Source: Achatina immaculata
Lineage: Eukaryota > Mollusca > Gastropoda > Stylommatophora > Achatinidae
Assembly (NCBI GenBank): GCA_009760885.1
Contig: CM019693.1
Span: 47,932,751 to 47,996,750, forward strand
Direction: 5' to 3'
Length of the DNA: 64,000 nucleotides
Position numbers and translations under genes: made by a program. The notes under the pieces were generated by a model that saw nothing but the letters and a program-made list of their open reading frames with translations, had not been told where the DNA came from and did not search any database. The first letter of the stretch is position 1. Each line of letters opens with the position of its first letter. This document shows positions 30,626 to 50,864 of this stretch, piece by piece.

Positions 30626-30636
30626 GGTAAGAACAG

Positions 30637-30703
30637 AACTTACCTGGCACGGAAGATCACCATGATCAACATGGTGGTCCTTTCAGTGAAGCTCAAAGTA
30701 TAG
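30637..30703 (+). ncRNA. U1-snRNA-like head of LINE copy 1
   Basis: AACTTACCTGGCACGGAAGA, then TCACCATGATCAACATGGTG and GTCCTTTCAGTGAAGCTCA, line up with the U1 snRNA 5' end. The shared parts are ACUUACCUGGCA (the 5' splice-site-recognition sequence), ACCAUGAUCA and GGUGGU of stem-loop I, and a GCUC stretch. CACCATG (30658-30664) and CATGGTG (30670-30676) form a perfect 7-bp stem. Similarity fades after about 65 nt, so there is no Sm site and no complete U1 gene. U1 comparison is from memory; the fold is read directly. The same head begins all four copies. Confidence 0.75.
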
Positions 30704-30754
30704 TGTCTGTTTCTCTGTTTTTGAATTTTGTGCGCGCTTTATTCTCTGCTGAAG

Positions 30755-31894
30755 ATGGAAACACCCCGTTTCACATACGACGCTGACAGCGACATGGAGG
30801 GCGGCCAGGAGGAGCACCCTGGAACCCTCGTCATCACGGTGAGTGGGCAAAATGCGACTAGAGTATCATACTCCTTTATGCACAGCATTCTTGCTGGTCC
30901 CGTTGGCCTTGGTGTTAATGGAGTGGCGACCCTCAGTCGCTATGAGAGTCGCACAAAGTGGTTTGTCACCCTACGACAAGCCACTCATATCATCCATTAT
31001 GGCTCTCTGCATGGCAAAACCCTGCACCTGGAAGAATCCAGACTCACCTTGCTCATCGAACACCTGGACAAGGAGCGTGTAAAAGGGACCCTCCACTGGA
31101 TGCCCACGGCAGCGAAGGCGCAGCTGGTCAAGCGCCTTGTCACTTTCCTGACCGGCGACGAGGAGGCCGAAGTGTCCCGCGTCGAGAAAGCAGACGACAA
31201 GTGGGCCTTTCGGTGCAAACCGAAACATGATGTCCCACACTACACGCTCTTGGCCAACTCAAGTGGGAGCAAAGAGTATAAAGTAGCCATTACCCTGCAG
31301 GGCCGCAATACGCCATGCCCAACTTGCGGAAGCGATTCACATAGGGCAAACAGATGTCCCAAACGCACCAAATCCACCCGCAGAGACACCACACGCCAGC
31401 AACAGGTCTCTGCAGTCAGGCGAGTTGAAGTCCGACCCGCCACACTTGCCGCGGACCCTCAAGGACAAGCTTCGGCCCACCAAGAGCCAGCCCCAGAGCC
31501 CACCGATGACGATGGGTTTAAGCTGGTAGAAAACCGGAAGAAGAGACGCCACCAGATCACCACCTCCGTGTCGCTGCCAACAAGCAAGTCCCCTTGTACA
31601 CCCAGGAAAAGGGTGCCATGCAACGGACCAGTGGAAGCCAGAAGTCCACGACGTGGTTCTGCAGCTCAGCTCCTTCCAACAGGGGAAGCACTGCAGCTTC
31701 CCCTTCCAGAGGAGGACATGGACCCACCACCACATCCAGCAGAGGATGCAGTTCATGTCCCCCTTCCGGTGGAGGACGCAGGATCACCACCTCATCCAAC
31801 GGAGGCACCCCTTTCTTGGGCACAACTGACAGAGGAGGATCATTCTGATGAGGAGGATCCTCCATTAACAATCGACGAGGACTTTCTATGTTAG
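30755..31894 (+). CDS. LINE ORF1 protein, copy 1 (intact, 379 aa)
   Basis: This is the nucleic-acid-binding ORF1 protein of the Tx1-type LINE, presumably coating the element RNA. I chose the ATG at 30755 because it sits in a good context (GAAGATGG) just after the head. Residues 1-25 are acidic and 25-175 form a probable folded region without an obvious motif. A zinc knuckle CPTCGSDSHRANRC spans residues 188-201 (C188, C191, H196, C201; CX2CX4HX4C). A basic stretch (KRTKSTRR) follows it. The last 70 residues are proline- and acid-rich with an imperfect internal repeat (PLPEEDMDPPPHPAED / PLPVEDAGSPPHPTEA) and end DEDFLC. Tx1-type ORF1 proteins typically carry such knuckles. Copies 2-4 have the same protein with frame breaks. 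Confidence 0.9.
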   Translation: METPRFTYDADSDMEGGQEEHPGTLVITVSGQNATRVSYSFMHSILAGPVGLGVNGVATLSRYESRTKWFVTLRQATHIIHYGSLHGKTLHLEESRLTLLIEHLDKERVKGTLHWMPTAAKAQLVKRLVTFLTGDEEAEVSRVEKADDKWAFRCKPKHDVPHYTLLANSSGSKEYKVAITLQGRNTPCPTCGSDSHRANRCPKRTKSTRRDTTRQQQVSAVRRVEVRPATLAADPQGQASAHQEPAPEPTDDDGFKLVENRKKRRHQITTSVSLPTSKSPCTPRKRVPCNGPVEARSPRRGSAAQLLPTGEALQLPLPEEDMDPPPHPAEDAVHVPLPVEDAGSPPHPTEAPLSWAQLTEEDHSDEEDPPLTIDEDFLC

Positions 31895-32413
31895 AACTGT
31901 GTCAATGTGACAGTTTAGACCACGGACAACTATGTATTTCCCCTATTTAGGAACACTGATTACATTTGTGTTGTGTCTTTCTTCACTATTGAGACTCACA
32001 GTCGCCAGGTAACTAGTCTACCACCATAATTTTAAAAATTTTTATTTCATTTACATCCAATCTTATCTTATATCCCCCGCCCCCATGCCGCTGAAAGTCG
32101 CATGGGGAACGCAAGTAAATTGCCCCACTTCGGAGTTGGCATCCCTAATATTCGGTTGGGTTCTCTGCAAGTTTTCATAACAATATCCCTTTGTCCCATA
32201 TCGAGTTGCCTCTAGATGTATCCCGGGATCAGGTTGTTCACCTTATGCCCCACTCCCGATACATGCTGTGTGACAGATCCAGCGGAATTCCGCTGTTTTC
32301 TGCATCCGGCTTGACCGTTTAAAGAAACATCCGCCATCTTGCACGTCACGCCGGAAGCCCCATCCACATAGTTATTTCGATGTTACGATTTTCATTTGTG
32401 TCCTGATTCCAAT
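31895..32413 (+). promoter_or_regulatory. 519-nt ORF1-ORF2 spacer with a 16-bp palindrome
   Basis: A long untranslated spacer is conserved in all four copies. It contains the perfect palindrome CAGCGGAATTCCGCTG at 32280-32295 and other short complementary stretches. Such a length excludes simple overlapping reinitiation and suggests an internal translation-entry or other structured RNA element, which is inference. The equivalent palindromes are at 37733-37748, 43193-43208 and 48644-48659. Confidence 0.5.
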
Positions 32414-35400
32414 ATGACCAATAAACTTTCCCTTTTAACTATTAATATTAGAGGACTGAGAAGAAAACTCAGTCAAGTAGTGCACCTAATACACAAACAT
32501 AAACCAGACTTTCTTCTCATCCAAGAAACATACATCAACACAGACACGCACGCTAACAAAATCACACACCTCTTAGGACTCAGACATTCGTGTTTCAGCG
32601 TAGGGAACATACACGCAGGGGTAGCAATACTGCAGGTATCCGAGGACTGGCAAATTGTGGGACGCAACAGAGACAGCGAAGGTAGAATAGCTATAGTGGA
32701 AATAAAACACACAAGTTCACACCAGAACAACTACACATTAGTCAACGTCTATGCACCAGCTGTGACAGAACAGCAACGTAATTTTTATGACAAACTCTCA
32801 CAGACACTAACATCATTCCACAGAAGACAAAACATTATTATGGCAGGCGACTTCAACTGTGTTCTTCACGACTTTGATCTGTCGAGAGGGACAATCAACA
32901 CACGCACTAGTCGAACCAACAGCAGTGAGCTCACACAAATAGACATACTACACAATATCATAGACGAGCACGGACTCGTAGACACATACAGAAAGACGAA
33001 CCCACATGGGAGGGAAACTACACACAAAGACATGATTAACATAAACATAGGACGATCAGCCCGACTAGACAGAATATATGTCCCAGAAACCTCCTAATAA
33101 ACAACATCACACACATTGACACAACATTAAATTACACTGATCATAAAGCTGTCATGGTCACATTAAACGCAAACTTGACACAACTCAAAATAATCGCTCT
33201 CCACACTGGAAGTTCAATAACAGCCTGCTGGACAACGTGAACTATGTAGACAACATAACAGAACTGTTACACGCGTACACCCAAGATTTACCCAAATCCA
33301 ACCTCCTAGAATACTGGGACATATTAAAGAACACTATCAGAGAACAAACACAGATCCTAGCGACAAAAATACACAGACACAGACGACAACAACAACAAAT
33401 TTTAGAAAACGCTATTAAACTGACCAAGCAGGTAGATCGCAATAGTCCGCACATACACGAGCTAGAGGAAGAACTAGAAAAATACCATCAACACAGCTAT
33501 CAAGGTGCTTTCATCAGAACAAAACTCAGCTCTGTCGTACAAGAATACCAAGCAAACAATATCTGGGAACAGAACGGAATGTACAAAGAAGCAGACAAAT
33601 ACACAAAATAATAGCTACAAACGGACAGGAACAACAGACACCACCAACATAAGCCAAACTTTTCTAGACTTTTACAAGCATCTATACTCTGAGGACAAGG
33701 GTCAGTCACAAGACATACAAAACAAATTCTTGAACTACGCTAAACAACTTCCTGAACAAGACAAGCAAACGTTAGACCTCCCACTCACGCTAGAAAACCT
33801 ACAGAATGCACTTAACACACTCCAAAAAAACAAATCTCCAGGACCGGATGGCCTCACCGCCGAGTTCTATCAGAAATTCTTTCCCATTCTAGGACCTGTC
33901 TTACACAAGGTTTTTACTGAAGCCTTCGACAGAAAAGAATTACCCAACAGCCTCAATCAGTCATACATAACACTCATCAAGAAAAACAACGCAGATACAA
34001 CCCAAGTAAAGAACTACAGACCTATCTCATTACTCAACGTAGACTACAAATCCTAGCAAAATCCCTAACTATGAAACTCAAACCCATCATGCACACACTT
34101 ATCAATGAGGACCAGCAATGTAGTGTCACCGACAGAAACATAAATACGCATTTACATTTCCTAAGAGATGTTATCCAATACTCTCACGATAAGAATAGCC
34201 AGTCAGCAATCTTATCGCTGGACCAGGAGAAGGCTTTCGACAGAGTTTCCCATTCTTTCCTCCAGAACCTTGTCCAAATGTAATCTTGGGGACTACATCA
34301 CAGACTGGATCAAAATTCTATACAACACACCAGAAAGCAGACTTTTAATAAACCACACCCTAAGTGAACCATTCCGGTTAACCAGATCTGTACGTCAGGG
34401 TTGCCCACTCTCACCCCTGTTGTATGTGCTAACTCTAGAGCCACTCCTGGAGAAAATCAGACAGGAGACACTAGTCAAAGGAATCTTTATTCCTGGAATG
34501 GGAGAGAGAAAATCGTTGGCCTACGCTGACGACACAATCTTCTTCCCCTCTAATATATCCTCTATTCAGAATATTCTAGACATAATTACAGAGTTCGGAC
34601 AAGGCAGCGGGGCCAAAATAAACATTCAAAAATCACACATAATGGGTTTAGGCAAATGGGTAAACAAAACAGACTTCCCATTCTCATTAATTCAGGTCAA
34701 CAAAATCAAACTATACGGAATTATATTTACAGCTACGCCTTCCAATAACACCAACGCAAGATGGCAAAATATCATTGGAAAAATAAAAAACCGACTGGAA
34801 CTATACAAATATAAAACTACCACCATATTCGGCAGAAGTGTCGCAGTCAACACCTGCGTCATACCACAGCTCATATACACCGCAAATATCTTTCCCTTGC
34901 CTAGACAGTCACTTAGGGAAGTCAATTCCATGATTAGCGACTTTATTTTCCGACACACAGTACACAGCATTCAACGGAAAACCTTGATGCAAGATAAGAA
35001 CAGAGGAGGCATCTCCCTACAAGACATATCAACAAAGATCCAGGCACTTAGAATTAAATATGTGGGACAAATCATCCAACAGCCACACAAACATACACTA
35101 GCCCTCTACTACGTAGGGCTAAGGCTAATCAAACTTTGTAAATTAAACAATGCATATCCCCATCACTTTGGCGCTATACCGCTCTTCTACAGACAATGCA
35201 TACAAAGTGTCACTGGACATGAACATTTAATACACATGAAAACATCAGGTATATACAAATACCTGGTAAGAAAACAGGAGCCACCATTACAGGACAGAAT
35301 AAAGAGAGGATACAAATACTTCATTACTGACTACACACAACCATTTCAAAACCTACACAAGAAAGGAATCACGCCAAGTGCGAGAGGTAACATACAGACT

Positions 35401-35787
35401 ATTGTTCAACATAACACCGACCACACAAGGGGTCGCCCGTAGATCCAATAGACTGATCAGATGTAGACTATGTAGAACAAAGACACAGTAAACAGAAGAG
35501 CACATCTTCTTTGAGTGCAAAACTGTTTCTTTAGCTTTTAAACTGTTGACTCACGAGATAACAACAAGAACAACACAGACAGTAGACATGTATAGAGCAG
35601 TCATGTTGACACCATCCCTCGAACAGTAGCAGACAGCCATGAACAGTCCATCATAATCCTAGCAGAATTTAGATCTCTTATCTGGTCATGTCGGAATAAG
35701 GCCATGTTTGATAACAAAGTTTTTACACCAGAAATTTTTCTGACCATCTTCCAAAACAAATTGTTAAGGCTTTCCGGTAGTTTTTAA
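32414..35787 (+). pseudogene. LINE ORF2, copy 1 (endonuclease-RT), frameshifted
   Basis: A polyprotein of about 1120 residues in the consensus. The N-terminal AP-like endonuclease has landmarks LTINIRGLRRK, LLIQETYI, VNVYAPA, MAGDFNCVLHD and SARLDRIYVPE, ending at TDHKAVMV. RT follows with NKSPGPDGLTAEFYQKFF, NYRPISLLNVDYK, motif A SLDQEKAFDRV, motif B RQGCPLSPLLYVLTLEPLL and motif C AYADDTIFF. A C-terminal CRLCRTKTQETEEHIFFEC is a CX2CX9HX4C zinc motif, damaged by an in-frame stop in this copy. The ATG is at 32414. Single-base indels break the frame at about 33090 (an A4 run reduced to A3), near 33190, near 34045 and near 34265, plus a few near the 3' end. The stop is at 35785-35787. Confidence 0.9.
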
Positions 35788-36079
35788 CAACTACTTGGAA
35801 TATTGAAGTCCTTTTTGTTTGTTTTTTTTTGGTGTGTGTATGTAGGTTTTGACAACGACACAGTTTTAGTTTCAAAACGTTGGGTATTATATAACCATGT
35901 TTTTATATACACATGCACTCAGATATACCTATCATCCAAATCACTATCATCTCATGTTTTGTTAAAGCCCACCATTTCATTATTTCACTTCACGGGCCAT
36001 CACCCTCACCTCACGTCATTTGCATACGATTTGTATTTGTAACTGTCAGACAAATAAACGTCATTAAAAAAAAAAAAAA
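35788..36079 (+). other. LINE 3' UTR and A-rich tail, copy 1
   Basis: It contains a short T/G-rich stretch, GACAACGACACAGTTTTAG, CAAAACGTTGGGTATTATAT, and ends AATAAACGTCATT plus A14. AATAAA lies about 10 bases before the A tail. Copy 3 has an expanded (TG)n here (about 46731-46758). Confidence 0.8.
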
Positions 36080-36090
36080 GGTAAGAACAG

Positions 36091-36157
36091 AACTTACCTG
36101 GCACGGAAGATCACCATGATCAACATGGTGGTCCTTTCAGTGAAGCTCAAAGTATAG
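36091..36157 (+). ncRNA. U1-snRNA-like head of LINE copy 2
   Basis: Identical to the copy 1 head over the whole 67 nt, including the CACCATG/CATGGTG stem. Confidence 0.75.
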
Positions 36158-36208
36158 TGTCTGTTTCTCTGTTTTTGAATTTTGTGCGCGCTTTATTCTC
36201 TGCTGAAG

Positions 36209-37347
36209 ATGGAACACCCCGTTTCACATACGACGCTGACAGCGACATGGAGGGCGGCCAGGAGGAGCACCCTGGAACCCTCGTCATCACGGTGAGTGGG
36301 CAAAATGCGACTAGAGTATCATACTCCTTTATGCACAGCATTCTTGCTGGTCCCGTTGGCCTTGGTGTTAATGGAGTGGCGACCCTCAGTCGCTATGAGA
36401 GTCGCACAAAGTGGTTTGTCACCCTACGACAAGCCACTCATATCATCCATTATGGCTCTCTGCATGGCAAAACCCTGCACCTGGAAGAATCCAGACTCAC
36501 CTTGCTCATCGAACACCTGGACAAGGAGCGTGTAAAAGGGACCCTCCACTGGATGCCCACGGCAGCGAAGGCGCAGCTGGTCAAGCGCCTTGTCACTTTC
36601 CTGACCGGCGACGAGGAGGCCGAAGTGTCCCGCGTCGAGAAAGCAGACGACAAGTGGGCCTTTCGGTGCAAACCGAAACATGATGTCCCACACTACACGC
36701 TCTTGGCCAACTCAAGTGGGAGCAAAGAGTATAAAGTAGCCATTACCCTGCAGGGCCGCAATACGCCATGCCCAACTTGCGGAAGCGATTCACATAGGGC
36801 AAACAGATGTCCCAAACGCACCAAATCCACCCGCAGAGACACCACACGCCAGCAACAGGTCTCTGCAGTCAGGCGAGTTGAAGTCCGACCCGCCACACTT
36901 GCCGCGGACCCTCAAGGACAAGCTTCGGCCCACCAAGAGCCAGCCCCAGAGCCCACCGATGACGATGGGTTTAAGCTGGTAGAAAACCGGAAGAAGAGAC
37001 GCCACCAGATCACCACCTCCGTGTCGCTGCCAACAAGCAAGTCCCCTTGTACACCCAGGAAAAGGGTGCCATGCAACGGACCAGTGGAAGCCAGAAGTCC
37101 ACGACGTGGTTCTGCAGCTCAGCTCCTTCCAACAGGGGAAGCACTGCAGCTTCCCCTTCCAGAGGAGGACATGGACCCACCACCACATCCAGCAGAGGAT
37201 GCAGTTCATGTCCCCCTTCCGGTGGAGGACGCAGGATCACCACCTCATCCAACGGAGGCACCCCTTTCTTGGGCACAACTGACAGAGGAGGATCATTCTG
37301 ATGAGGAGGATCCTCCATTAACAATCGACGAGGACTTTCTATGTTAG
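36209..37347 (+). pseudogene. LINE ORF1, copy 2, start-proximal frameshift
   Basis: One A is missing directly after the ATG (ATGGAACACC instead of ATGGAAACACC), so the normal start is out of frame. The rest of the protein, with zinc knuckle and acidic tail, is open and identical to copy 1. The next in-frame ATG is the MEGGQEEH methionine. A sequencing error in an A run would explain this equally well. Confidence 0.85.
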
Positions 37348-37866
37348 AACTGTGTCAATGTGACAGTTTAGACCACGGACAACTATGTATTTCCCCTATT
37401 TAGGAACACTGATTACATTTGTGTTGTGTCTTTCTTCACTATTGAGACTCACAGTCGCCAGGTAACTAGTCTACCACCATAATTTTAAAAATTTTTATTT
37501 CATTTACATCCAATCTTATCTTATATCCCCCGCCCCCATGCCGCTGAAAGTCGCATGGGGAACGCAAGTAAATTGCCCCACTTCGGAGTTGGCATCCCTA
37601 ATATTCGGTTGGGTTCTCTGCAAGTTTTCATAACAATATCCCTTTGTCCCATATCGAGTTGCCTCTAGATGTATCCCGGGATCAGGTTGTTCACCTTATG
37701 CCCCACTCCCGATACATGCTGTGTGACAGATCCAGCGGAATTCCGCTGTTTTCTGCATCCGGCTTGACCGTTTAAAGAAACATCCGCCATCTTGCACGTC
37801 ACGCCGGAAGCCCCATCCACATAGTTATTTCGATGTTACGATTTTCATTTGTGTCCTGATTCCAAT

Positions 37867-40800
37867 ATGACCAATAAACTTTCCCTTTTAACTATTAATA
37901 TTAGAGGACTGAGAAGAAAACTCAGTCAAGTAGTGCACCTAATACACAAACATAAACCAGACTTTCTTCTCATCCAAGAAACATACATCAACACAGACAC
38001 GCACGCTAACAAAATCACACACCTCTTAGGACTCAGACATTCGTGTTTCAGCGTAGGGAACATACACGCAGGGGTAGCAATACTGCAGGTATCCGAGGAC
38101 TGGCAAATTGTGGGACGCAACAGAGACAGCGAAGGTAGAATAGCTATAGTGGAAATAAAACACACAAGTTCACACCAGAACAACTACACATTAGTCAACG
38201 TCTATGCACCAGCTGTGACAGAACAGCAACGTAATTTTTATGACAAACTCTCACAGACACTAACATCATTCCACAGAAGACAAAACATTATTATGGCAGG
38301 CGACTTCAACTGTGTTCTTCACGACTTTGATCTGTCGAGAGGGACAATCAACACACGCACTAGTCGAACCAACAGCAGTGAGCTCACACAAATAGACATA
38401 CTACACAATATCATAGACGAGCACGGACTCGTAGACACATACAGAAAGACGAACCCACATGGGAGGGAAACTACACACAAAGACATGATTAACATAAACA
38501 TAGGACGATCAGCCCGACTAGACAGAATATATGTCCCAGAAAACCTCCTAATAAACAACATCACACACATTGACACAACATTAAATTACACTGATCATAA
38601 AGCTGTCATGGTCACATTAAACGCAAACTTGACACAACTCAAAAATAATCGCTCTCCACACTGGAAGTTCAATAACAGCCTGCTGGACAACGTGAACTAT
38701 GTAGACAACATAACAGAACTGTTACACGCGTACACCAAGACTTACCCAAATCCAACCTCCTAGAATACTGGGACATATTAAAGAACACTATCAGAGAACA
38801 AACACAGATCCTAGCGACAAAATACACAGACACAGACGACAACAACAACAAATTTTAGAAAACGCTATTAAACTGACCAAGCAGGTAGATCGCAATAGTC
38901 CGCACATACACGAGCTAGAGGAAGAACTAGAAAAATACCATCAACACAGCTATCAAGGTGCTTTCATCAGAACAAAACTCAGCTCTGTCGTACAAGAAAT
39001 ACCAAGCAAACAATATCTGGGAACAGAACGGAATGTACAAAGAAGCAGACAAATACACAAAATAATAGCTACAAACGGACAGGAACAAACAGACACCACC
39101 AACATAAGCCAAACTTTTCTAGACTTTTACAAGCATCTATACTCTGAGGACAAGGGTCAGTCACAAGACACACAAAACAAATTCTTGAACTACGCTAAAC
39201 AACTTCCTGAACAAGACAAGCAAACGTTAGACCTCCCACTCACGCTAGAAAACCTACAGAATGCACTTAACACACTCCAAAAAAACAAATCTCCAGGACC
39301 GGATGGCCTCACCGCCGAGTTCTATCAGAAATTCTTTCCCATTCTAGGACCTGTCTTACACAAGGTTTTTACTGAAGCCTTCGACAGAAAAGAATTACCC
39401 AACAGCCTCAATCAGTCATACATAACACTCATCAGAAAAACAACGCAGATACAACCCAAGTAAAGAACTACAGACCTATCTCATTACTCAACGTAGACTA
39501 CAAAATCCTAGCAAAATCCCTAACTATGAAACTCAAACCCATCATGCACACACTTATCAATGAGGACCAGCAATGTAGTGTCACCGACAGAAACATAAAT
39601 ACGCATTTACATTTCCTAAGAGATGTTATCCAATACTCTCACGAGAAGAATAGCCAGTCAGCAATCTTATCGCTGGACCAGGAGAAGGCTTTCGACAGAG
39701 TTTCCCATTCTTTCCTCCAGAGAACCTTGTCCAAATGTAATCTTGGGGACTACATCACAGACTGGATCAAAATTCTATACAACACACCAGAAAGCAGACT
39801 TTTAATAAACCACACCCTAAGTGAACCATTCCGGTTAACCAGATCTGTACGTCAGGGTTGCCCACTCTCACCCCTGTTGTATGTGCTAACTCTAGAGCCA
39901 CTCCTGGAGAAAATCAGACAGGAGACACTAGTCAAAGGAATCTTTATTCCTGGAATGGGAGAGAGAAAATCGTTGGCCTACGCTGACGACACAATCTTCT
40001 TCCCCTCTAATATATCCTCTATTCAGAATATTCTAGACATAATTACAGAGTTCGGACAAGGCAGCGGGGCCAAAATAAACATTCAAAAATCACACATAAT
40101 GGGTTTAGGCAAATGGGTAAACAAAACAGACTTCCCATTCTCATTAATTCAGGTCAACAAAATCAAACTATACGGAATTATATTTACAGCTACGCCTTCC
40201 AATAACACCAACGCAAGATGGCAAAATATCATTGGAAAAATAAAAAACCGACTGGAACTATACAAATATAAAACTACCACCATATTCGGCAGAAGTGTCG
40301 CAGTCAACACCTGCGTCATACCACAGCTCATATACACCGCAAATATCTTTCCCTTGCCTAGACAGTCACTTAGGGAAGTCAATTCCATGATTAGCGACTT
40401 TATTTTCCGACACACAGTACACAGCATTCAACGGAAAACCTTGATGCAAGATAAGAACAGAGGAGGCATCTCCCTACAAGACATATCAACAAAGATCCAG
40501 GCACTAGAATTAAATATGTGGGACAAATCATCCAACAGCCACACAACATACACTAGCCCTCTACTACGTAGGGCTAAGGCTAATCAAACTTTGTAAATTA
40601 AACAATGCATATCCCCATCACTTTGGCGCTATACCGCTCTTCTACAGACAATGCATACAAAGTGTCACTGGACATGAACATTTAATACACATGAAAACAT
40701 CAGGTATATACAAATACCTGGTAAGAAAACAGGAGCCACCATTACAGGACAGAATAAAGAGAGGATACAAATACTTCATTACTGACTACACACAACCATT

Positions 40801-41245
40801 TCAAAACCTACACAAGAAAGGAATCACGCCAAGTGCACGAGAGGTAACATACAGACTATTGTTCAACATAACACCGACCACACAAGGGGTCGCCCGTAGA
40901 TCCAATAGACTGATCAGATGTAGACTATGTAGAACAAAGACACAGGAAACAGAAGAGCACATCTTCTTTGAGTGCAAAACTGTTTCTTTAGCTTTTAAAC
41001 TGTTGACTCACGAGATAACAACAAGAACAACACAGACAGTAGACATGTATAGAGCAGTCATGTTGAACACCATCCCTCGAACAGTAGCAGACAGCCATGA
41101 ACAGTCCATCATAATCCTAGCAGAATTTAGATCTCTTATCTGGTCATGTCGGAATAAGGCCATGTTTGATAACAAAGTTTTTACACCAGAAATTTTTCTG
41201 ACCATCTTCCAAAACAAATTGTTAAGGCTTTCCGGTAGTTTTTAA
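37867..41245 (+). pseudogene. LINE ORF2, copy 2, frameshifted
   Basis: The endonuclease is open from the ATG at 37867 to about 38760, the longest intact endonuclease in the array (LTINIRGL to TDHKAVMV and beyond). Frame breaks follow near 38740, 38820 and 39435 (one A lost in ATCAGAAAAAC) and near 40505. The RT from NEDQQCSV to the YADD box and thumb is open at 39526-40500. The C-terminal part with CRLCRTKTQETEEHIFFEC is open at 40691-41245. Confidence 0.9.
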
Positions 41246-41549
41246 CAACTACTTGGAATATTGAAGTCCTTTTGTTTTTTTTTTTTTTGTGTGTGTGTAT
41301 GTAGGTTTTGACAACGACACAGTTTTAGTTTCAAAACGTTGGGTATTATATAACCATGTTTTTATATACACATGCACTCAGATATACCTATCATCCAAAT
41401 CACTATCATCTCATGTTTTGTTAAAGCCCACCATTTCATTATTTCACTTCACGGGCCATCACCCTCACCTCACGTCATTTGCATACGATTTGTATTTGTA
41501 ACTGTCAGACAAATAAACGTCATTAAAAAAAAAAAAAAGGTAAGAACAG

Positions 41550-41616
41550 AACTTACCTGGCACGGAAGATCACCATGATCAACATGGTGGTCCTTTCAGT
41601 GAAGCTCAAAGTATAG
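41550..41616 (+). ncRNA. U1-snRNA-like head of LINE copy 3
   Basis: Same 67-nt head as copies 1 and 2, with the intact hairpin. Confidence 0.75.
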
Positions 41617-41667
41617 TGTCTGTTTCTCTGTTTTTGAATTTTGTGCGCGCTTTATTCTTTGCTGAAG

Positions 41668-42805
41668 ATGGAAACACCCCGTTTCACATACGACGCTGAC
41701 AGCGACATGGAGGGCGGCCAGGAGGAGCACCCTGGAACCCTCGTCATCACGGTGAGTGGGCAAAATGCGACTAGAGTATCATACTCCTTTATGCACAGCA
41801 TTCTTGCTGGTCCCGTTGGCCTTGGTGTTAATGGAGTGGCGACCCTCAGTCGCTATGAGAGTCGCACAAAGTGGTTTGTCACCTTACGACAAGCCACTCA
41901 TATCATCCATTATGGCTCTCTGCATGGCAAAACCCTGCACCTGGAAGAATCCAGACTCACCTTGCTCATCGAACACCTGGACAAGGAGCGTGTAAAAGGG
42001 ACCCTCCACTGGATGCCCACGGCAGCGAAGGCGCAGCTGGTCAAGCGCCTTGTCACTTTCCTGACCGGCGACGAGGAGGCCGAAGTGTCCCGCGTCGAGA
42101 AAGCAGACGACAAGTGGGCCTTTCGGTGCAAACCGAAACATGATGTCCCACACTACACGCTCTTGGCCAACTCAAGTGGGAGCAAAGAGTATAAAGTAGC
42201 CATTACCCTGCAGGGCCGCAATACGCCATGCCCAACTTGCGGAAGCGATGCACATAGGGCAAACAGATGTCCCAAACGCACCAAATCCACCCGCAGACAC
42301 CACACGCCAGCAACAGGTCTCTGCAGTCAGGCGAGTTGAAGTCCGACCCGCCACACTTGCCGCGGACCCTCAAGGACAAGCTTCGGCCCACCAAGAGCAA
42401 GCCCCAGAGCCCACCGATGACGATGGGTTTAAGCTGGTAGAAAACCGGAAGAAGAGACGCCACCAGATCACCACCTCCGTGTCGCTGCCAACAAGCAAGT
42501 CCCCTTGTACACCCAGGAAAAGGGTGCCATGCAACGGACCAGTGGAAGCCAGAAGTCCACGACGTGGTTCTGCAGCTCAGCTCCTTCCAACAGGGGAAGC
42601 ACTGCAGCTTCCCCTTCCAGAGGAGGACATGGACCCACCACCACATCCAGCAGAGGATGCAGTTCATGTCCCCCTTCCGGTGGAGGACGCAGGATCACCA
42701 CCTCATCCAACGGAGGCACCCCTTTCTTGGGCACAACTGACAGAGGAGGATCATTCTGATGAGGAGGATCCTCCATTAACAATCGACGAGGACTTTCTAT
42801 GTTAG
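41668..42805 (+). pseudogene. LINE ORF1, copy 3, 2-nt deletion
   Basis: Open from the ATG through the zinc knuckle (CPTCGSDAHRANRC). A 2-nt loss just after it (CGCAGACACC instead of CGCAGAGACACC, near 42296) then ends the frame at RRHHTPATGLCSQAS. The acidic proline-rich tail continues in another frame to 42805. Confidence 0.85.
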
Positions 42806-43326
42806 AACTGTGTCAATGTGACAGTTTAGACCACGGACAACTATGTATTTCCCCTATTTAGGAACACTAATTACATTTGTGTTGTGTCTTTCTTCGCTAT
42901 TGAGACTCACAGTTGCCAGGTAACTAGTCTACCACCATAATTTTAAAAAAAAATTTTTATTTCATTTACATCCAATCTTATCTTATATCCCCCGCCCCCA
43001 TGCCGCTGAAAGTCGCATGGGGAACGCAAGTAAATTGCCCCACTTCGGAGTTGGCATCCTCAATATTCGGTTGGGTTCTCTGCAAGTTTTCATAACAATA
43101 TCCCTTTGTCCCATATCGAGTTGCCTCTAGATGTATCCCGGGATCAGGTTGTTCATTATGCCCCACTCCCGATACATGCTGTGTGACAGATCCAGCGGAA
43201 TTCCGCTGTTTTCTGCATCCGGCTTGACCGTTTAAAGAAACATCCGCCATCTTGCACGTCACGCCGGAAGCCCCATCCACATAGTTATTTCGATGTTACG
43301 ATTTTCATTTGTATCTTGATTCCAAT

Positions 43327-46300
43327 ATGACCGATAAACTTTCCCTTTTAACTATTAATATTAGAGGACTGAGAAGAAAACTCAGTCAAGTAGTGCACCT
43401 AATACAAAACATAAACCAGACTTTCTTCTCATCCAAGAAACATACATCAACACAGACACGCACGCTAACAAAATCCACACCTCTTAGGACTCAGACATTC
43501 GTGTTTCAGCGTAGGGAACATACACGCAGGGTAGCAATACTGCAGGTATCCGAGGACTGGCAAATTGTGGGACGCAACAGAGACAGCGAAGGTAGAATAG
43601 CTATAGTGGAAATAAAACACACAAGTTCACACCAGAACAACTACACATTAGTCAACGTATGCACCAGCTGTGACAGAACAGCAACGTAATTTTTATGACA
43701 AACTCTCACAGACACTAACATCATTCCACAGAAGACAAAACATTATTATGGCAGGCGACTTCAACTGTGTTCTTCACGACTTTGATCTGTCGAGAGGGAC
43801 AATCAACACACGCACTAGTCGAACCAACAGCAGTGAGCTCACACAAATAGACATACTACACAATATCATAGACGAGCACGGACTCGTAGACACATACAGA
43901 AAGACGAACCCACATGGTAGGGAAACTACACACAAGACATGATTCACATAAACATAGGACGATCAGCCCGACTAGACAGAATATATGTCCCAGAAAATCT
44001 CATAATAAACGACATCACACATTGACAACAACATTAAATTACACTGATCATAAAGCTGTCATGGTCACATTAAACGCAAACTTGACACAACTCAAAAATA
44101 ATCGCTCTCCACACTGGAAGTTCAATAACAGCCTGCTGGACAACGTGAACTATGTAGACAACAACAGAACTGTTACACGCGTACACCCAAGACTTACCCA
44201 AATCCAACCTCCTAGAATACTGGGACATATTAAAGAACACTATCAGAGAAAACACAGATCCTAGCGACAAAAATACACAGACACAGACGACAACAACAAC
44301 AAATTTTAGAAAACGCTATTAAACTGACCAAGCAGGTAGATCGCAATAGTCCCCACATACACGAGCTAGAGGAAGAACTAGAAAAATACCATCAACACAG
44401 CTATCACGGTGCTTTCATCAGAACAAAACTCGGCTCTGTCGTACAAGAAATACCAAGCAAACAATATCTGGGAACAGAACGGAATGTACAAAGAAGCAGA
44501 CAAATACACAAAATAATAGCTACAAACGGACAGGAACAGACAGACACCACCAACATAAGCCAAACTTTTCTAGACTTTTACAAGCATCTATACTCTGAGG
44601 ACAAGGGTCAGTCACAAGACATACAAAACAAATTCTTGAACTACGCTAAACAACTTCCTGAACAAGACAAGCAAACGTTAGACATCCCACTCACGCTAGA
44701 AAACCTACAGAATGCACTTAACACACTCCAAAAAAACAAATCTCCAGGACCGGATGGCCTCACCGCCGAGTTCTATCAGAAATTCTTTCCCATTCTAGGA
44801 CCTGTCTTACACAAGGTTTTTACTGAAGCCTTCGACAGAAAAGAATTACCCAACAGCCTCAATCAGTCATACATAACACTCATCAAGAAAAACAACGCAG
44901 ATACAACCCAAGTAAAGAACTACAGACCTATCTCATTACTCAACGTAGACTAAAAATCCTAGCAAAATCCCTAACTATGAAACTCAAACCCATCATGCAC
45001 ACACTTATCAATGAGGACCAGCAATGTAGTGTCACCGACAGAAACATAAATACGCATTTACTTCCTAAGAGATGTTATCCAATACTCTCACGATAAGAAT
45101 AGCCAGTCAGCAATCTTATCGCTGGACCAGGAGAAGGCTTTCGACAGAGTTTCCCATTCTTTCCTCCAGAAACCTTGTCCAAATGTAATCTTGGGGACTA
45201 CATCACAGACTGGATCAAAATTCTATACAACAAACCAGAAAGCAGACTTTTAATAAACCACACCCTAAGTGAACCATTCCGGTTAACCAGATCTGTACGT
45301 CAGGGTTGCCCACTCTCACCCTGTTGTATGTGCTAACTCTAGAGCCACTCCTGGAGAAAATCAGACAGGAGACACTAGTCAAAGGAATCTTTATTCCTGG
45401 AATGGGAGAGAGAAAATCGTTGGCCTACGCTGACGACACAATCTTCTTCCCCTCTAATATATCCTCTATTCAGAATATTCTAGACATAATTACAGAGTTC
45501 GGACAAGGCAGCGGGGCCAAAATAAACATTCAAAAATCACACATAATGGGTTTAGGCAAATGGGTCAACAAAACAGACTTCCCATTCTCATTAATTCAGG
45601 TCAACAAAATCAAACTATACGGAATTTATTTACAGCTACGCCTTCCATAACACCAACGCAAGATGGCAAAATATCATTGGAAAATAAAAAACCGACTGGA
45701 ACTATACAAATATAAAACTACCACCATATTCGGCAGAAGTGTCGCAGTCAACACCTGCGTCATACCACAGCTCATATACACCGCAAATATCTTTCCCTTG
45801 CCTAGACAGTCACTTAGGGAAGTCAATTCCATGATTAGCGACTTTATTTTCCGACACACAGTACACAGCATCCAAAGGAAAACCTTGATGCAAGATAAGA
45901 ACAGAGGAGGCATCTCCCTACAAGACATATCAACAAAGATCCAGGCACTCAGAATTAAATATGTGGGACAAATCATCCAACAGCCACACAGACATACACT
46001 AGCCCACTACTACGTAGGGCTAAGGCTAATCAACTTTGTAAATTAAACAATGTATCCCCATCACTTTGGCACTATACCGCTCTTCTACAGACAATGCATA
46101 AAGTGTCACTGGACATGAACATTTAATACACATGAAAACATCAGGTATATACAAATACCTGGTAAGAAAACAGGAGCCACCATTACAGGACAGAATAAAG
46201 AGAGGATACAAATACTTCATTACTGACTACACACAACCATTTCAAAACCTACACAAGAAAGGAATCACGCCAAGTGCACGAGAGATAACATACAGACTAT

Positions 46301-46686
46301 TGTTCAACATAACACCGACCACACAAGGGGTCGCCCGTAGATCCAATAGACTGATCAGATGTAGACTATGTAGAACAAAGACACAGGAAACAGAAGAGCA
46401 CATCTTCTTTGAGTGCAAAACTGTTTCTTTAGCTTTTAAACTGTTGACTCACGAGATAACAACAAGAACAACACAGACAGTAGACATGTATAGAGCAGTC
46501 ATGTTGAACACCATCCCTCGAACAGTAGCAGACAGCCATGAACAGTCCATCATAATCCTAGCAGAATTTAGATCTCTTATCTGGTCATGTCGGAATAAGG
46601 CCATGTTTGATAACAAAGTTTTTACACCAGAAATTTTTCTGACCATCTTCCAAAACAAATTGTTAAGGCTTTCCGGTAGTTTTTAA
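43327..46686 (+). pseudogene. LINE ORF2, copy 3, multiple frameshifts
   Basis: The same endonuclease-RT protein is broken by single-base losses near 43405, 43475, 43530 and 43660 and several in the linker. A premature stop follows LLNVD near 44950, and more breaks lie near 45060, 45320, 45625 and 45685. The YADD segment (45306-45650) and the CCHC C-terminus (46132-46686) remain readable. Confidence 0.9.
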
Positions 46687-46726
46687 CAACTACTTGGAAT
46701 ATTGAAGTCCTTTTGTTTGTTTGTTT

Positions 46727-46761
<35 letters not shown>

Positions 46762-47007
46762 AGGTTTTGACAACGACACAGTTTTAGTTTCAAAACGTTG
46801 GGTATTATATAACCATGTTTTTATATACACATGCACTCAGATATACCTATCATCCAAATCACTATCATCTCATGTTTTGTTAAAGCCCACCATTTCATTA
46901 TTTCACTTCACGGGCCATCACCCTCACCTCACGTCATTTGCATACGATTTGTATTTGTAACTGTCAGACAAATAACGTCATTAAAAAAAAAAAAAAGGTA
47001 AGAACAG

Positions 47008-47074
47008 AACTTACCTGGCACGGAAGATCACCATGATCAACATGGTGGTCCTTTCAGTGAAGCTCAAAGTATAG
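47008..47074 (+). ncRNA. U1-snRNA-like head of LINE copy 4
   Basis: The 67-nt head is unchanged even though the body of this copy is the most decayed. Confidence 0.75.
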
Positions 47075-47125
47075 TGTCTGTTTCTCTGTTTTTGAATTTT
47101 GTGCGCGCTTTATTCTTTGCTGAAG

Positions 47126-48258
47126 ATGGAAACACCCCGTTTCACCTACGACGCTGACAGCGACATGGAGGGCGGCCAGGAGGAGCACCCTGGAACCCTC
47201 GTCATCACGGTGAGTGGGCAAAATGCGACTAGAGTATCATACTCCTTTATGCACAGCATTCTTGCTGGTCCCGTTGGCCTTGGTGTTAATGGAGTGGCGA
47301 CCCTCAGTCGCTATGAGAGTCGCACAAAGTGGTTCTTCACCCTACGACAAGCCACTCATATCATCCATTATGGCTTTCTGCATGGCAAAACCCTGCACCT
47401 GGAAGAATCCAGACTCACCTTGCTCATCGAACACCTGGACAAGGAGCGTGTAAAAGGGACCCTCCACTGGATGCCCACGGCAGCGAAGGCGCAGCTGGTC
47501 AAGCGCCTTGTCACTTTCCTGACCGGCGACGAGGAGGCCGAAGTGTCCCGCGTCGAGAAAGCAGACGACAAGTGGGCCTTTCGGTGCAAACCGAAACAAG
47601 TTGTCCCACACTACACGCTCTTGGCCAACTCAAGTGGGAGCAAAGAGTATAAAGTAGCCATTACCCTGCAGGGCCGCAATACGCCATGCCCAACTTGCGG
47701 AAGCGATGCACATGGGCAAACAGATGTCCCAAAAGTACCATCCACTCGCAGAGAACACACACGCCAGCAACAGGTCTCTGCAGTCAGGCGAGTTGAAGTC
47801 CGACCCGCCACACTTGCCGCGGACCCTCAAGGACAAGCTTCGGCCCACAAGAGCAAGCCCCAGAGCCCACCGATGACGATGGGTTTAAGCTGGTAGAAAA
47901 CCGGAAGAGAGACGCCATCAGATCACCACCTCCGGTCGCTGCCAACAAGCAAGTCCCCGTGTACACCCAGGAAAAGGGTGCCATGCACGGACCAGTGGAA
48001 GCCAGAAGTCCACGACGTGGTTCTGCAGCTCAGCTCCTTCCAACAGGGGAAGCACTGCAGCTTCCCCTTCCAGAGGAGGACATGGACCCACCACCACATC
48101 CAGCAGAGGATGCAGTTCATGTCCCCCTTCCGGTGGAGGATGCAGGATCACCACCTCATCCAACGGAGGCACCCCTTTCTTGGGCACAACTGACAGAGGA
48201 GGATCATTCTGATGAGGAGGATCCTCCATTAACAATCGACGAGGACTTTCTATGTTAG
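47126..48258 (+). pseudogene. LINE ORF1, copy 4, multiple frameshifts
   Basis: The N-terminal part is open with substitutions (KWFFTLRQ, GFLHGK, KPKQVVPH). The zinc knuckle is damaged: after CPTCGSDAHG a base is lost and the final cysteine is gone. Further indels lie near 47850, 47910 and 47935. The acidic tail is intact at its end. Confidence 0.85.
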
Positions 48259-48777
48259 AACTGTGTCAATGTGACAGTTTAGACCACGGACAACTGTGTA
48301 TTTCTCCAATTTAGGAACACTAATTGCATTTGTGTTGTGTCTTTCTTCGCTATTGAGACTCACAGTTGCCAGGTAACTAGTCTACCACCATAATTTTAAA
48401 AATTTTTATTTCATTTACATCCAATCTTATCTTATATCCCCCGCCCCCATGCCGCTGAAAGTCGCATGGGGAACGCAAGTAAATTGCCCCACTTCGGAGT
48501 TGGCATCCCTAATATTCGGTTGGGTTCTCTGCAAGTTTTCATAACAATATCCCTTTGTCCCATATCGAGTTGCCTCTAGATGTATCCCGGGATCAGGTTG
48601 TTCACCTTATGCCCCACTCCCGATACGTGCTGTGTGACAGATCCAGCGGAATTCCGCTGTTTTCTGCATCCGGCTTGACCGTTTAAAGAAACATCCGCCA
48701 TCTTGCACGTCACGCCGGAAGCCCCATCCACATAGTTATTTCGATGTTACGATTTTCATTTGTGCCTTGATTCCAAT

Positions 48778-50764
48778 ATGACCGATAAACTTTCCCTTTT
48801 ACTATTAATATTAGAGGACTGAGAAGAAAACTCAGTCAAGTAGTGCACCTAATACACAAACATAAACCAGACTTTCTTCATCCAAGAAACTTACATCAAC
48901 ACAGACACGCACGCTAACAAAATTACCACCTCTTAGGACTCACACATTCGTGTTTCAGCGTAGGGAACATACACGCAGGGGTAGCAATACTGCAGGTATC
49001 CGAGGACTGGCAAATTGTGGGACGCAACAGAGACAGCGAAGGTAGAATAGCAATAGTGGAAATAAAACACAAGTTCTTTCACACCAGAACAACTACACAT
49101 TAGTCAACGTATATGCACCAGCTGTGACAGAACAGCAACGTAACTTTTATGACAAACTCTCACAGACACTAACATCATTCCACAGAAGACAAAACATTAT
49201 TATGGCAGGCGACTTAACTGTGTTCTTCACGACTTTGATCTGTCGAGAGGGACAATCAACACACGCACTAGTCGAACCAACAGCAGTGAACTCACACAAA
49301 TAGACATACTACACAATATCATAGACGAACACGGACTCGTAGACACATACAGAAGAACGAATCCACATGGTAGGGAAACTACACACAAAGACACGATTAA
49401 CATAAACATAGGACGATCAGCCCGACTAGACAGATATATGTCCCAGAAAACCTCCTATAAACAACATCACACACATAGACACAACATTAAATTACACTGA
49501 TCATAAAGCTGTCATGGTCACATTAAATGCAACCTTGACACAACTCAAAAACAAACGCTCCCCACACTGGAAGTTTAATAACAGCCTGCTGGACAACGTG
49601 AACTATGTAGACAACATAACAGAACTGTTACACGCGTACATTCAAGACTTACCCAAATCCAACCTCATAGAATACTGGGACATATCTTATTCCTGGAATG
49701 GGAGAGAGGAAATCGTTGGCCTACGCTGACGACACAATCTTCTTCCCCCCAATAATCCTCTATTCAGAATATTCTAGACATAATTACAGAGTTCGGACAA
49801 GGCAGTGGGGCCAAAAAACATTCAAAAATCACACATAATGGGTTTAGGCAAGTGGGTCAACAAAACAGACCTCCCACTCACATTAATTCAGGTCAACAAA
49901 ATCAAACTATACGGAATTTTATTTACAGCTACGCCCTCCAATAATACCAACGCAAGATGGCAAAATATCATAGGAAAAATAAAAAACCGACTGGAACTAT
50001 ACAAATATAAAACTACCACCATATTCGGCAGAAGTGTCACAGTCAACACCTGCGTCATACCACAGCTCATATACACCGCAAATATCTTTCCCTTGCCTAG
50101 ACAGTCACTTAAGGAAGTCCACTCCATGATTAGCGACTTTATTTTCCGACACACAGTACACAGCATTCAACGGAAAACCTTGATGCAAGATAAGAACAGA
50201 GGAGGCATCTCCCTACAAGACATATCAACAAAGATCCAGGCACTCAGAATTAAATATGTGGGACAAATCATCCAACAGCCACACAAACATACTCTAGCCC
50301 ACTACTACATATGAAAACATCAGGTATATACAAATATCTGGTCAGAAAACAGGAACCACCATTACAGGACAGAATAAAGAGAGGATTCAAATACTTCATT
50401 ACTGACTACACACAACCATTTCAAAACCTACACCAGAAAGGAATCACGCCAAGTGCACGAGAGATAACATACAGACTATTGTTCAACATAACACCGACCA
50501 CACAAGGAGTCGCCCGCAGATCCAACAGACTGATCAGATGTAGACTATGTAGAACAAAGACACAGGAAACAGAAGAGCACATCTTCTTTGAGTGCAAAAC
50601 TGTTTCTTTAGCTTTTAAACTGTTGACTCACGAGATAACAACACGAACAACACAGACAGTAGACATGTATAGAACAATCATGTTGAACACCATCCCGAAC
50701 AGTAGCAGACAGCCATGAACAGTCCATCATCCTCCTAGCAGAATTTAGATCTCTTATTCTGGTC
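48778..50764 (+). pseudogene. LINE ORF2, copy 4, deletions and frameshifts
   Basis: Endonuclease fragments are recognisable up to DNVNYVDNITELLHAY. The large deletion removes the linker and RT fingers to motif B. The YADD region and thumb (KNIQKSHIMGLGKWVNK) survive, as does most of the CCHC C-terminus (50311-50700). Confidence 0.9.
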
Positions 50765-50864
50765 NNNNNNNNNNNNNNNNNNNNNNNNNNNNNNNNNNNN
50801 NNNNNNNNNNNNNNNNNNNNNNNNNNNNNNNNNNNNNNNNNNNNNNNNNNNNNNNNNNNNNNNN
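50765..50864. other. Assembly gap (100 N)
   Basis: Exactly 100 N. It conceals the 3' end of LINE copy 4, and possibly more copies, so the array length and the right flank are unknown. Confidence 1.

Follow-up and report, generated by a model that had tools for sequence, protein, structure and literature searches.

Keno, of the Tx1 clade, and Utopia are long interspersed nuclear elements (LINEs) that target U2 small nuclear RNA (snRNA) genes, as described in PMC4640811. In R2, which resides in 28S ribosomal RNA (rRNA) genes, homology at the 5' end of the template allows the end of the complementary DNA (cDNA) to anneal to the upstream target, and as few as 11 bp are enough for this (PMC11331408). 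A LINE targeting U1 snRNA genes was not found in the literature searched, a search outside which most subscription papers lay. Here we describe a candidate from Achatina immaculata, a LINE of about 5.45 kb present as four head-to-tail copies at positions 30626-50764 of a stretch of 64,000 nucleotides (nt) of contig CM019693.1, hereafter the window. The element prefers to insert between nt 36 and 37 of U1, and the U1-like sequence at the 5' end of its copies, the head, is likely to be the promoter side of that target, acquired through transcription from U1 promoters.

The copies in the window and their 5' features are the following:

30626..36079, + strand: LINE copy 1, with 12-bp prefix, U1 head, open reading frame (ORF) 1, ORF2 pieces and A tail
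36080..41538, + strand: LINE copy 2, 99.56% identical to copy 1
41539..46996, + strand: LINE copy 3, 98.3% identical to copies 1 and 2
46997..50764, + strand: LINE copy 4, about 95-97% identical to copies 1-3, ending in an assembly gap
50765..50864, no strand: assembly gap, concealing the 3' end of copy 4
30626..30637, + strand: 12-bp prefix GGTAAGAACAGA, read as a target-site duplication, recurring at 36080-36091, 41539-41550 and 46997-47008
30638..30686, + strand: U1 head of copy 1 (U1 nt 3-50), with the equivalent of the U1 insertion site at 30672/30673
36092..36140, + strand: U1 head of copy 2
41551..41599, + strand: U1 head of copy 3
47009..47057, + strand: U1 head of copy 4

An earlier note on this DNA had claimed that the four copies share a U1-like 5' end. 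This is borne out by their heads, which are identical in all four, and by the match of the head to the Rfam U1 family (RF00003; 26.8 bits, E 7.8e-5 for the 600 nt searched). The head does not score as a U1 gene, lying below the RF00003 gathering score of 69.5, and Rfam at gathering score gave no match in the whole window. The local alignment of the head with the human U1 sequence scores 56; none of 2000 shuffles of U1 exceeded 30, and the rest of the window reached no more than 28. The head is nearer to host U1 than to human U1, the letters CACGGAAG, ATCAACA and GGTCCTT being those of the host, and host U1 genes do align to the head, which had been proposed as a check. The note was right to see a LINE that has its 5' end from U1, and neither of the two outcomes that it named as refuting was found. 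The extent of the head had been given as U1 nt 1-65; U1 nt 3-50 are indeed present in order, but the similarity of the aligned heads stops near nt 50. When folded, the head forms a long hairpin. Its invariance in copy 4 had been put down to constraint, an argument that fails because substitution-free stretches of 183-223 nt occur elsewhere in the copies.

The preference for one site emerges from the U1 sequences of the host genome (1.65 Gb in 145 contigs; C and L label contigs and loci, and the window lies on C11). The search scored 42 of 19829 candidates, 20 of them above 130 bits and 22 at 81-110 bits. Twenty of the 22 low-scoring matches (<140 bits) are 3' parts of U1 adjoining the 3' end of this LINE. 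Seventeen of the 22 were read with the LINE tail in front: 16 join U1 at nt 37, among them L060 with a short head remnant between the tail and U1 nt 37, and L051 joins it near nt 21. Three more coincide with LINE 3' ends by coordinates; the exceptions are L049, which has an intact U1 5' end, and L055, which has another tail. The copy on C19 passes from its A tail into U1 nt 37-164; arrays on C26 and C28, as well as single loci on C26 and C16, have the same junction. Two more C28 junctions have one G missing, and an array on C29 ends at U1 nt 35-151. The exact junction of A8 with GGTGGTNCTTCCAGG, where U1 starts at nt 37, occurs 34 times versus 0 for the reversed control; the pattern is blind to the owner of the tail, and 4 of the 23 listed junctions carry other tails (L015, L017, L034, L055). 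Independent insertions at this single site, as expected of an snRNA-targeting element, are found at many loci. Next to intact U1 genes without this LINE, L017, L015 and L018 hold U1 fragments starting at nt ~32-37, some behind A-rich letters; these may be traces of other or very short insertions.

Loci found through U1 give no measure of specificity. A tally of 3' ends not selected through U1 took the best 40 of 1145 candidates, of which 36 were resolved by sequence, coordinates, junction pattern or 20 short stretches, and four on C16 were left unread. U1 is the site of 12 resolved ends and a U1-like head that of two more (L060, L067), together 14 of the 36; with each array target counted once, U1 or a U1-like head makes up 12 of 22 targets. 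U1 is strongly preferred relative to its tiny share of the genome, yet it is not the sole target, and the strict specificity of Keno- and Utopia-type LINEs is not seen. Contig C16 (genome G000) has arrays of LINE 3' ends at 18.16, 44.8-44.9 and 45.1-45.2 Mb, often ~2.73 kb apart, and all ten array ends read there sit at a GATACC target.

The presence of the head in dispersed copies had been suggested as a further check. It was found in 16 of the best 40 of 343 candidate matches to the window 5' end, and the other 24 start further in, 5 at query position 45 or 46 and 19 at 102-130. The 16 headed matches represent nine independent loci with differing upstream letters; L047 is a short element resembling a short interspersed nuclear element (SINE), and the others are this LINE or its relatives. 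Most heads start at U1 +1 to +3, that on C9 slightly further in. Over 46 nt, two of the nine heads are identical to one of the 20 U1 genes compared (D_C11 to L018, X_C21 to L010), and the remaining heads are 3-6 edits from the nearest of them.

Several headed or related loci have features of their own. Ten extra tandem units of U1 nt 1-37 precede the U1 head of the LINE in L045 (627-1041), as would be expected if U1 nt 1-36/37 were added in repeated rounds, although expansion of a repeat would give the same picture. On C16 and C47, copies (L034, L040, L041) have another, shared leader in place of U1 nt 1-36, joined exactly at the insertion point. The element in L047 (7860-8033, - strand) consists of U1 nt 3-50 and a tail 77% similar over 79 nt to an element in L055, where the A tail of that related element lies at U1 nt 37.

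The earlier note had counted GGTAAGAACAG into the head. Of the nine headed loci, none but the window array and the near-copy of that array on C29 has it, and it behaves as a 12-bp target duplication. The prefix GGTAAGAACAGA is best read as such a duplication and not as part of the element, because it is absent before the other headed copies and because repeats flank L044 (14 bp) and L046 (13 bp) on both sides, although some of their letters could be tail or head. A GGTAAG-CTTACC hairpin was dropped as a part of the element on the ground of the same absence; snap-back priming was also considered and dropped. A cut at nt 36/37 plus 12-14 bp leads to nt 48-50, where the aligned heads lose their similarity to U1.

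The copy on C19 lies behind a genuine U1 promoter. Over 150-1000 nt its upstream sequence matches the one in front of an intact U1 gene with 98% identity (106 gap letters at 1000), with an alignment score of 192 versus a shuffle maximum of 26.5. On the best account, copies residing in U1 genes would be transcribed from the U1 promoter. The junctions show that the LINE inserts preferentially between U1 nt 36 and 37, within the stem-loop I sequence CAAYAA^GGTGG; it does so by target-primed reverse transcription, after which the A tail is fused to U1 from nt 37. A U1-resident copy would then stand behind the U1 promoter, U1 nt 1-36 and the duplicated nt 37-50; transcription from U1 +1 would produce LINE RNA starting with U1 nt 1-50, and new copies would inherit this head. 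In another U1 gene the head could pair with the upstream target sequence that it matches, so that the 5' junction would be seamless, in the manner of R2 templates, as C19 suggests. Insertion at non-U1 sites would create an ordinary duplication of 12-14 bp, as seen at L044 and L046 and as we read the window array. The head would thus end near nt 50 because this is the insertion site plus one target duplication of 12-14 bp, and it would be carried along because source copies were transcribed from U1 promoters.

Although we consider this the likely explanation, several observations weigh against it. Only one headed copy, that on C19, was seen behind a U1 promoter, and its front is the element's own head with no fresh duplication. 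Seven of the eight other headed flanks lie within the shuffles, and the window flank is barely above them (14.5 vs 13.0). Target duplications were found in two of the four copies tested, the search in L045 and L037 giving only 8- and 7-letter matches. Most resolved 3' ends (22 of 36) lie elsewhere than at U1: four at the GGTAAG site of the C11 and C29 arrays, 10 at the GATACC target of C16 and 8 at single sites, 14 of the 22 being in tandem or duplicated arrays. The assembly gap hides the U1 junction of the window array itself. Finally, family A heads are 4-6 edits from the nearest U1, and the D_C22 head is 3 edits from these heads versus 4 from any U1 gene compared; some heads are therefore inherited, not fresh.

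A number of loci (L010-L014, L033, L029/L030 (lineage B) and L032) show an apparently intact U1 gene, then the LINE, then U1 nt 37-164 once more. LINE sequence of at least 285 nt lies within 1.5 kb downstream of six of the 20 high-scoring U1 genes (L010-L014, L016). In L010-L014 the LINE homology begins at element position 1607, behind a stretch of ~540-1200 nt that these loci share from just after U1 nt 164, where other U1 genes share only ~30 nt. The stretch contains a degenerate U1 head (scores 36-40 vs shuffle maxima of 27-34). In L033, which is the L011 locus, it differs from what follows the downstream U1 part; on C26, the sequence that comes after the final U1 part of the array is an 82% relative of the lineage B stretch, perhaps an older insert. 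On C28 a truncated LINE is repeated together with U1 nt 37-164 plus 172 nt. The second U1 nt 37-164 could be either a target duplication of 128-300 bp or an element-borne U1 that rebuilds the gene. The copies of U1 nt 37-164 before and after the insert agree within three loci, and 1-4 letters differ between U1 types; a long target duplication or annealing is therefore favoured over an element-borne copy for this part of U1. A fuller version of our proposal, in which the LINE homes to nt 36/37 and uses the U1 promoter while lineage B also bears a 3' box of U1 type and possibly further U1 sequence at its 5' end, so that an intact U1 gene precedes the insert and the interrupted gene is restored, is offered only tentatively and is on the unlikely side. 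If true, it would mean a retroelement that repairs its essential target, like some prokaryotic islands at tRNA genes.

The head might instead have arisen by template switching, the reverse transcriptase (RT) jumping from the end of the LINE RNA to U1 snRNA; it would then have been inherited, and the liking for U1 genes would be separate or driven by homology. SINEs with U1 or U2 heads, to which heads were reportedly added recurrently (Kojima 2015), would fit such a course. The heads described here resemble different U1 variants, and chimeras of LINE-1 with U1-U6 snRNAs are reported in PMC13174262. Template switching does not predict, however, that aligned heads of diverged lineages should break near nt 50, at the insertion site plus the length of a target duplication, for which it is the weaker account, and it leaves the copy behind a U1 promoter unexplained. 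We regard it as improbable.

Very improbable, in our view, is the possibility that the head is a 5' untranslated region of old date, passed on by descent, whose U1 likeness was kept for an RNA function (U1-70K binding or mimicry of a 5' splice site), with insertion into U1 following from the homology. The retention of the U1 5' end and stem-loop I in diverged lineages and the long hairpin of the folded head are compatible with such a function, but the identity of two heads to particular host U1 genes points to recent origin, the C16 and C47 copies exchange U1 nt 1-36 for another leader precisely at the insertion point, and the stem-loop variants mirror U1 variants and so give no independent sign of selection. 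A chance resemblance or an assembly artefact, for which the assembly gaps, the many one-base indels and the near-identical C11 and C29 arrays might speak, is next to negligible in view of the significant scores, the nine loci with differing flanks, the exact identities to U1 genes and the 34 junctions versus 0.

The element in which we propose promoter acquisition from U1 has the coding parts of a LINE, annotated in the window as follows:

30755..31894, + strand: ORF1 of copy 1, 379 amino acids, with a CCHC pattern
32396..33097, + strand: ORF2 piece of copy 1, apurinic/apyrimidinic endonuclease (APE)-type endonuclease (Exo_endo_phos)
39526..40596, + strand: ORF2 piece of copy 2, RT (RVT_1)
40691..41245, + strand: ORF2 piece of copy 2, zf-RVT
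36066..36079, + strand: A tail of copy 1, 14 A, with the same at 41525-41538 and 46983-46996

The CCHC pattern was spotted by eye only, a Pfam scan of ORF1 of copy 1 giving 0 families; a protein search gave one relative of ORF1, P0121, with 80% identity. The solved proteins nearest to the window RT are LINE-1 ORF2. ORF2 combines an APE-type endonuclease and an RT, as in the Tx1 clade, to which the LINE plausibly belongs; as part of the explanation preferred here, it is probably an APE-type element of the L1/Tx1 group. Outside the window, the C19 copy has open frames of 389 and of 1010 codons, and one lineage B copy on C26 has a frame of 1141. Scans of viral contigs for the head, the RT and the ORF1 relative, and of genome contigs with the RT alignment, found no relatives.

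From position 8901301, C29 carries a four-copy array 99.5% identical to the window array (29610-50764) over 10 kb, 5' flank included, which is either a segmental or an assembly duplication. In this near-copy the tail leads into U1 nt 35-151. Copies 1-3 of the window are placed at a GGTAAG site upstream of copy 4, whose tail, by the C29 near-copy, would adjoin U1. Stepwise insertion is consistent with the 90 private substitution columns of copy 4 versus 15 in copy 3, about 15 of the 90 sitting at a deletion edge (copy 4 has two internal deletions, of about 1.17 and 0.12 kb); unequal crossing-over is consistent with the near-identity of copies 1 and 2 (99.56%) and with the three tails of 14 A each. 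One-base indels between the window copies are numerous, and some are perhaps assembly errors. Minisatellites are unusually many in the window (1-64000), with 74 Tandem Repeats Finder rows and many units of 20-75 bp.

If promoter capture at U1 is correct, U1 would be added to the genes for rRNA, tRNA, 5S and U2 in which LINEs reside, and the 5' end of a LINE would record how it obtained a promoter, namely from its target. The sequences may then preserve successive rounds of insertion and transcription, because heads vary from locus to locus and some are identical to individual U1 genes. Promoter capture would also provide an account of U1-headed SINEs without template switching.

Among described systems, SINEU, with U1 or U2 heads, and Tx1-Mar are said to have been described from crocodilians by Kojima in 2015, SINEU reportedly preferring a Mariner transposon. 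The likeness would lie in the U1-derived 5' end, the involvement of a Tx1-clade LINE and a preference short of strict specificity; SINEU is said, however, to be non-coding and to have Mariner as target, whereas here a coding LINE is headed and the U1 gene itself is preferred. The LINE has ORF1 and ORF2 and is not a SINEU, and L047 is a different kind of short element with a U1 head. The endonuclease of R2 is of a different type. R2 resembles our LINE in having no promoter of its own identified and in its 5' homology to the target, but its co-transcript is processed by a ribozyme (PMC11331408). LINE-1/snRNA chimeras likewise have snRNA sequence fused to the LINE 5' end, although U6/LINE-1 chimeras are usually not propagated further according to PMC13174262, whereas headed copies of this LINE are found at nine loci. 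Dada-U1 elements also insert into U1 snRNA genes but are DNA transposons, with target duplications of 6-7 bp and another U1 site (PMC8869645). Keno and Utopia share with our LINE one fixed site in a spliceosomal RNA gene and occasional tandem insertions, and Keno also its APE-type endonuclease (PMC4640811); they differ in that their target is U2, whereas this LINE shows a preference only, for U1, and its off-target full-length copies are headed by the 5' part of the target.

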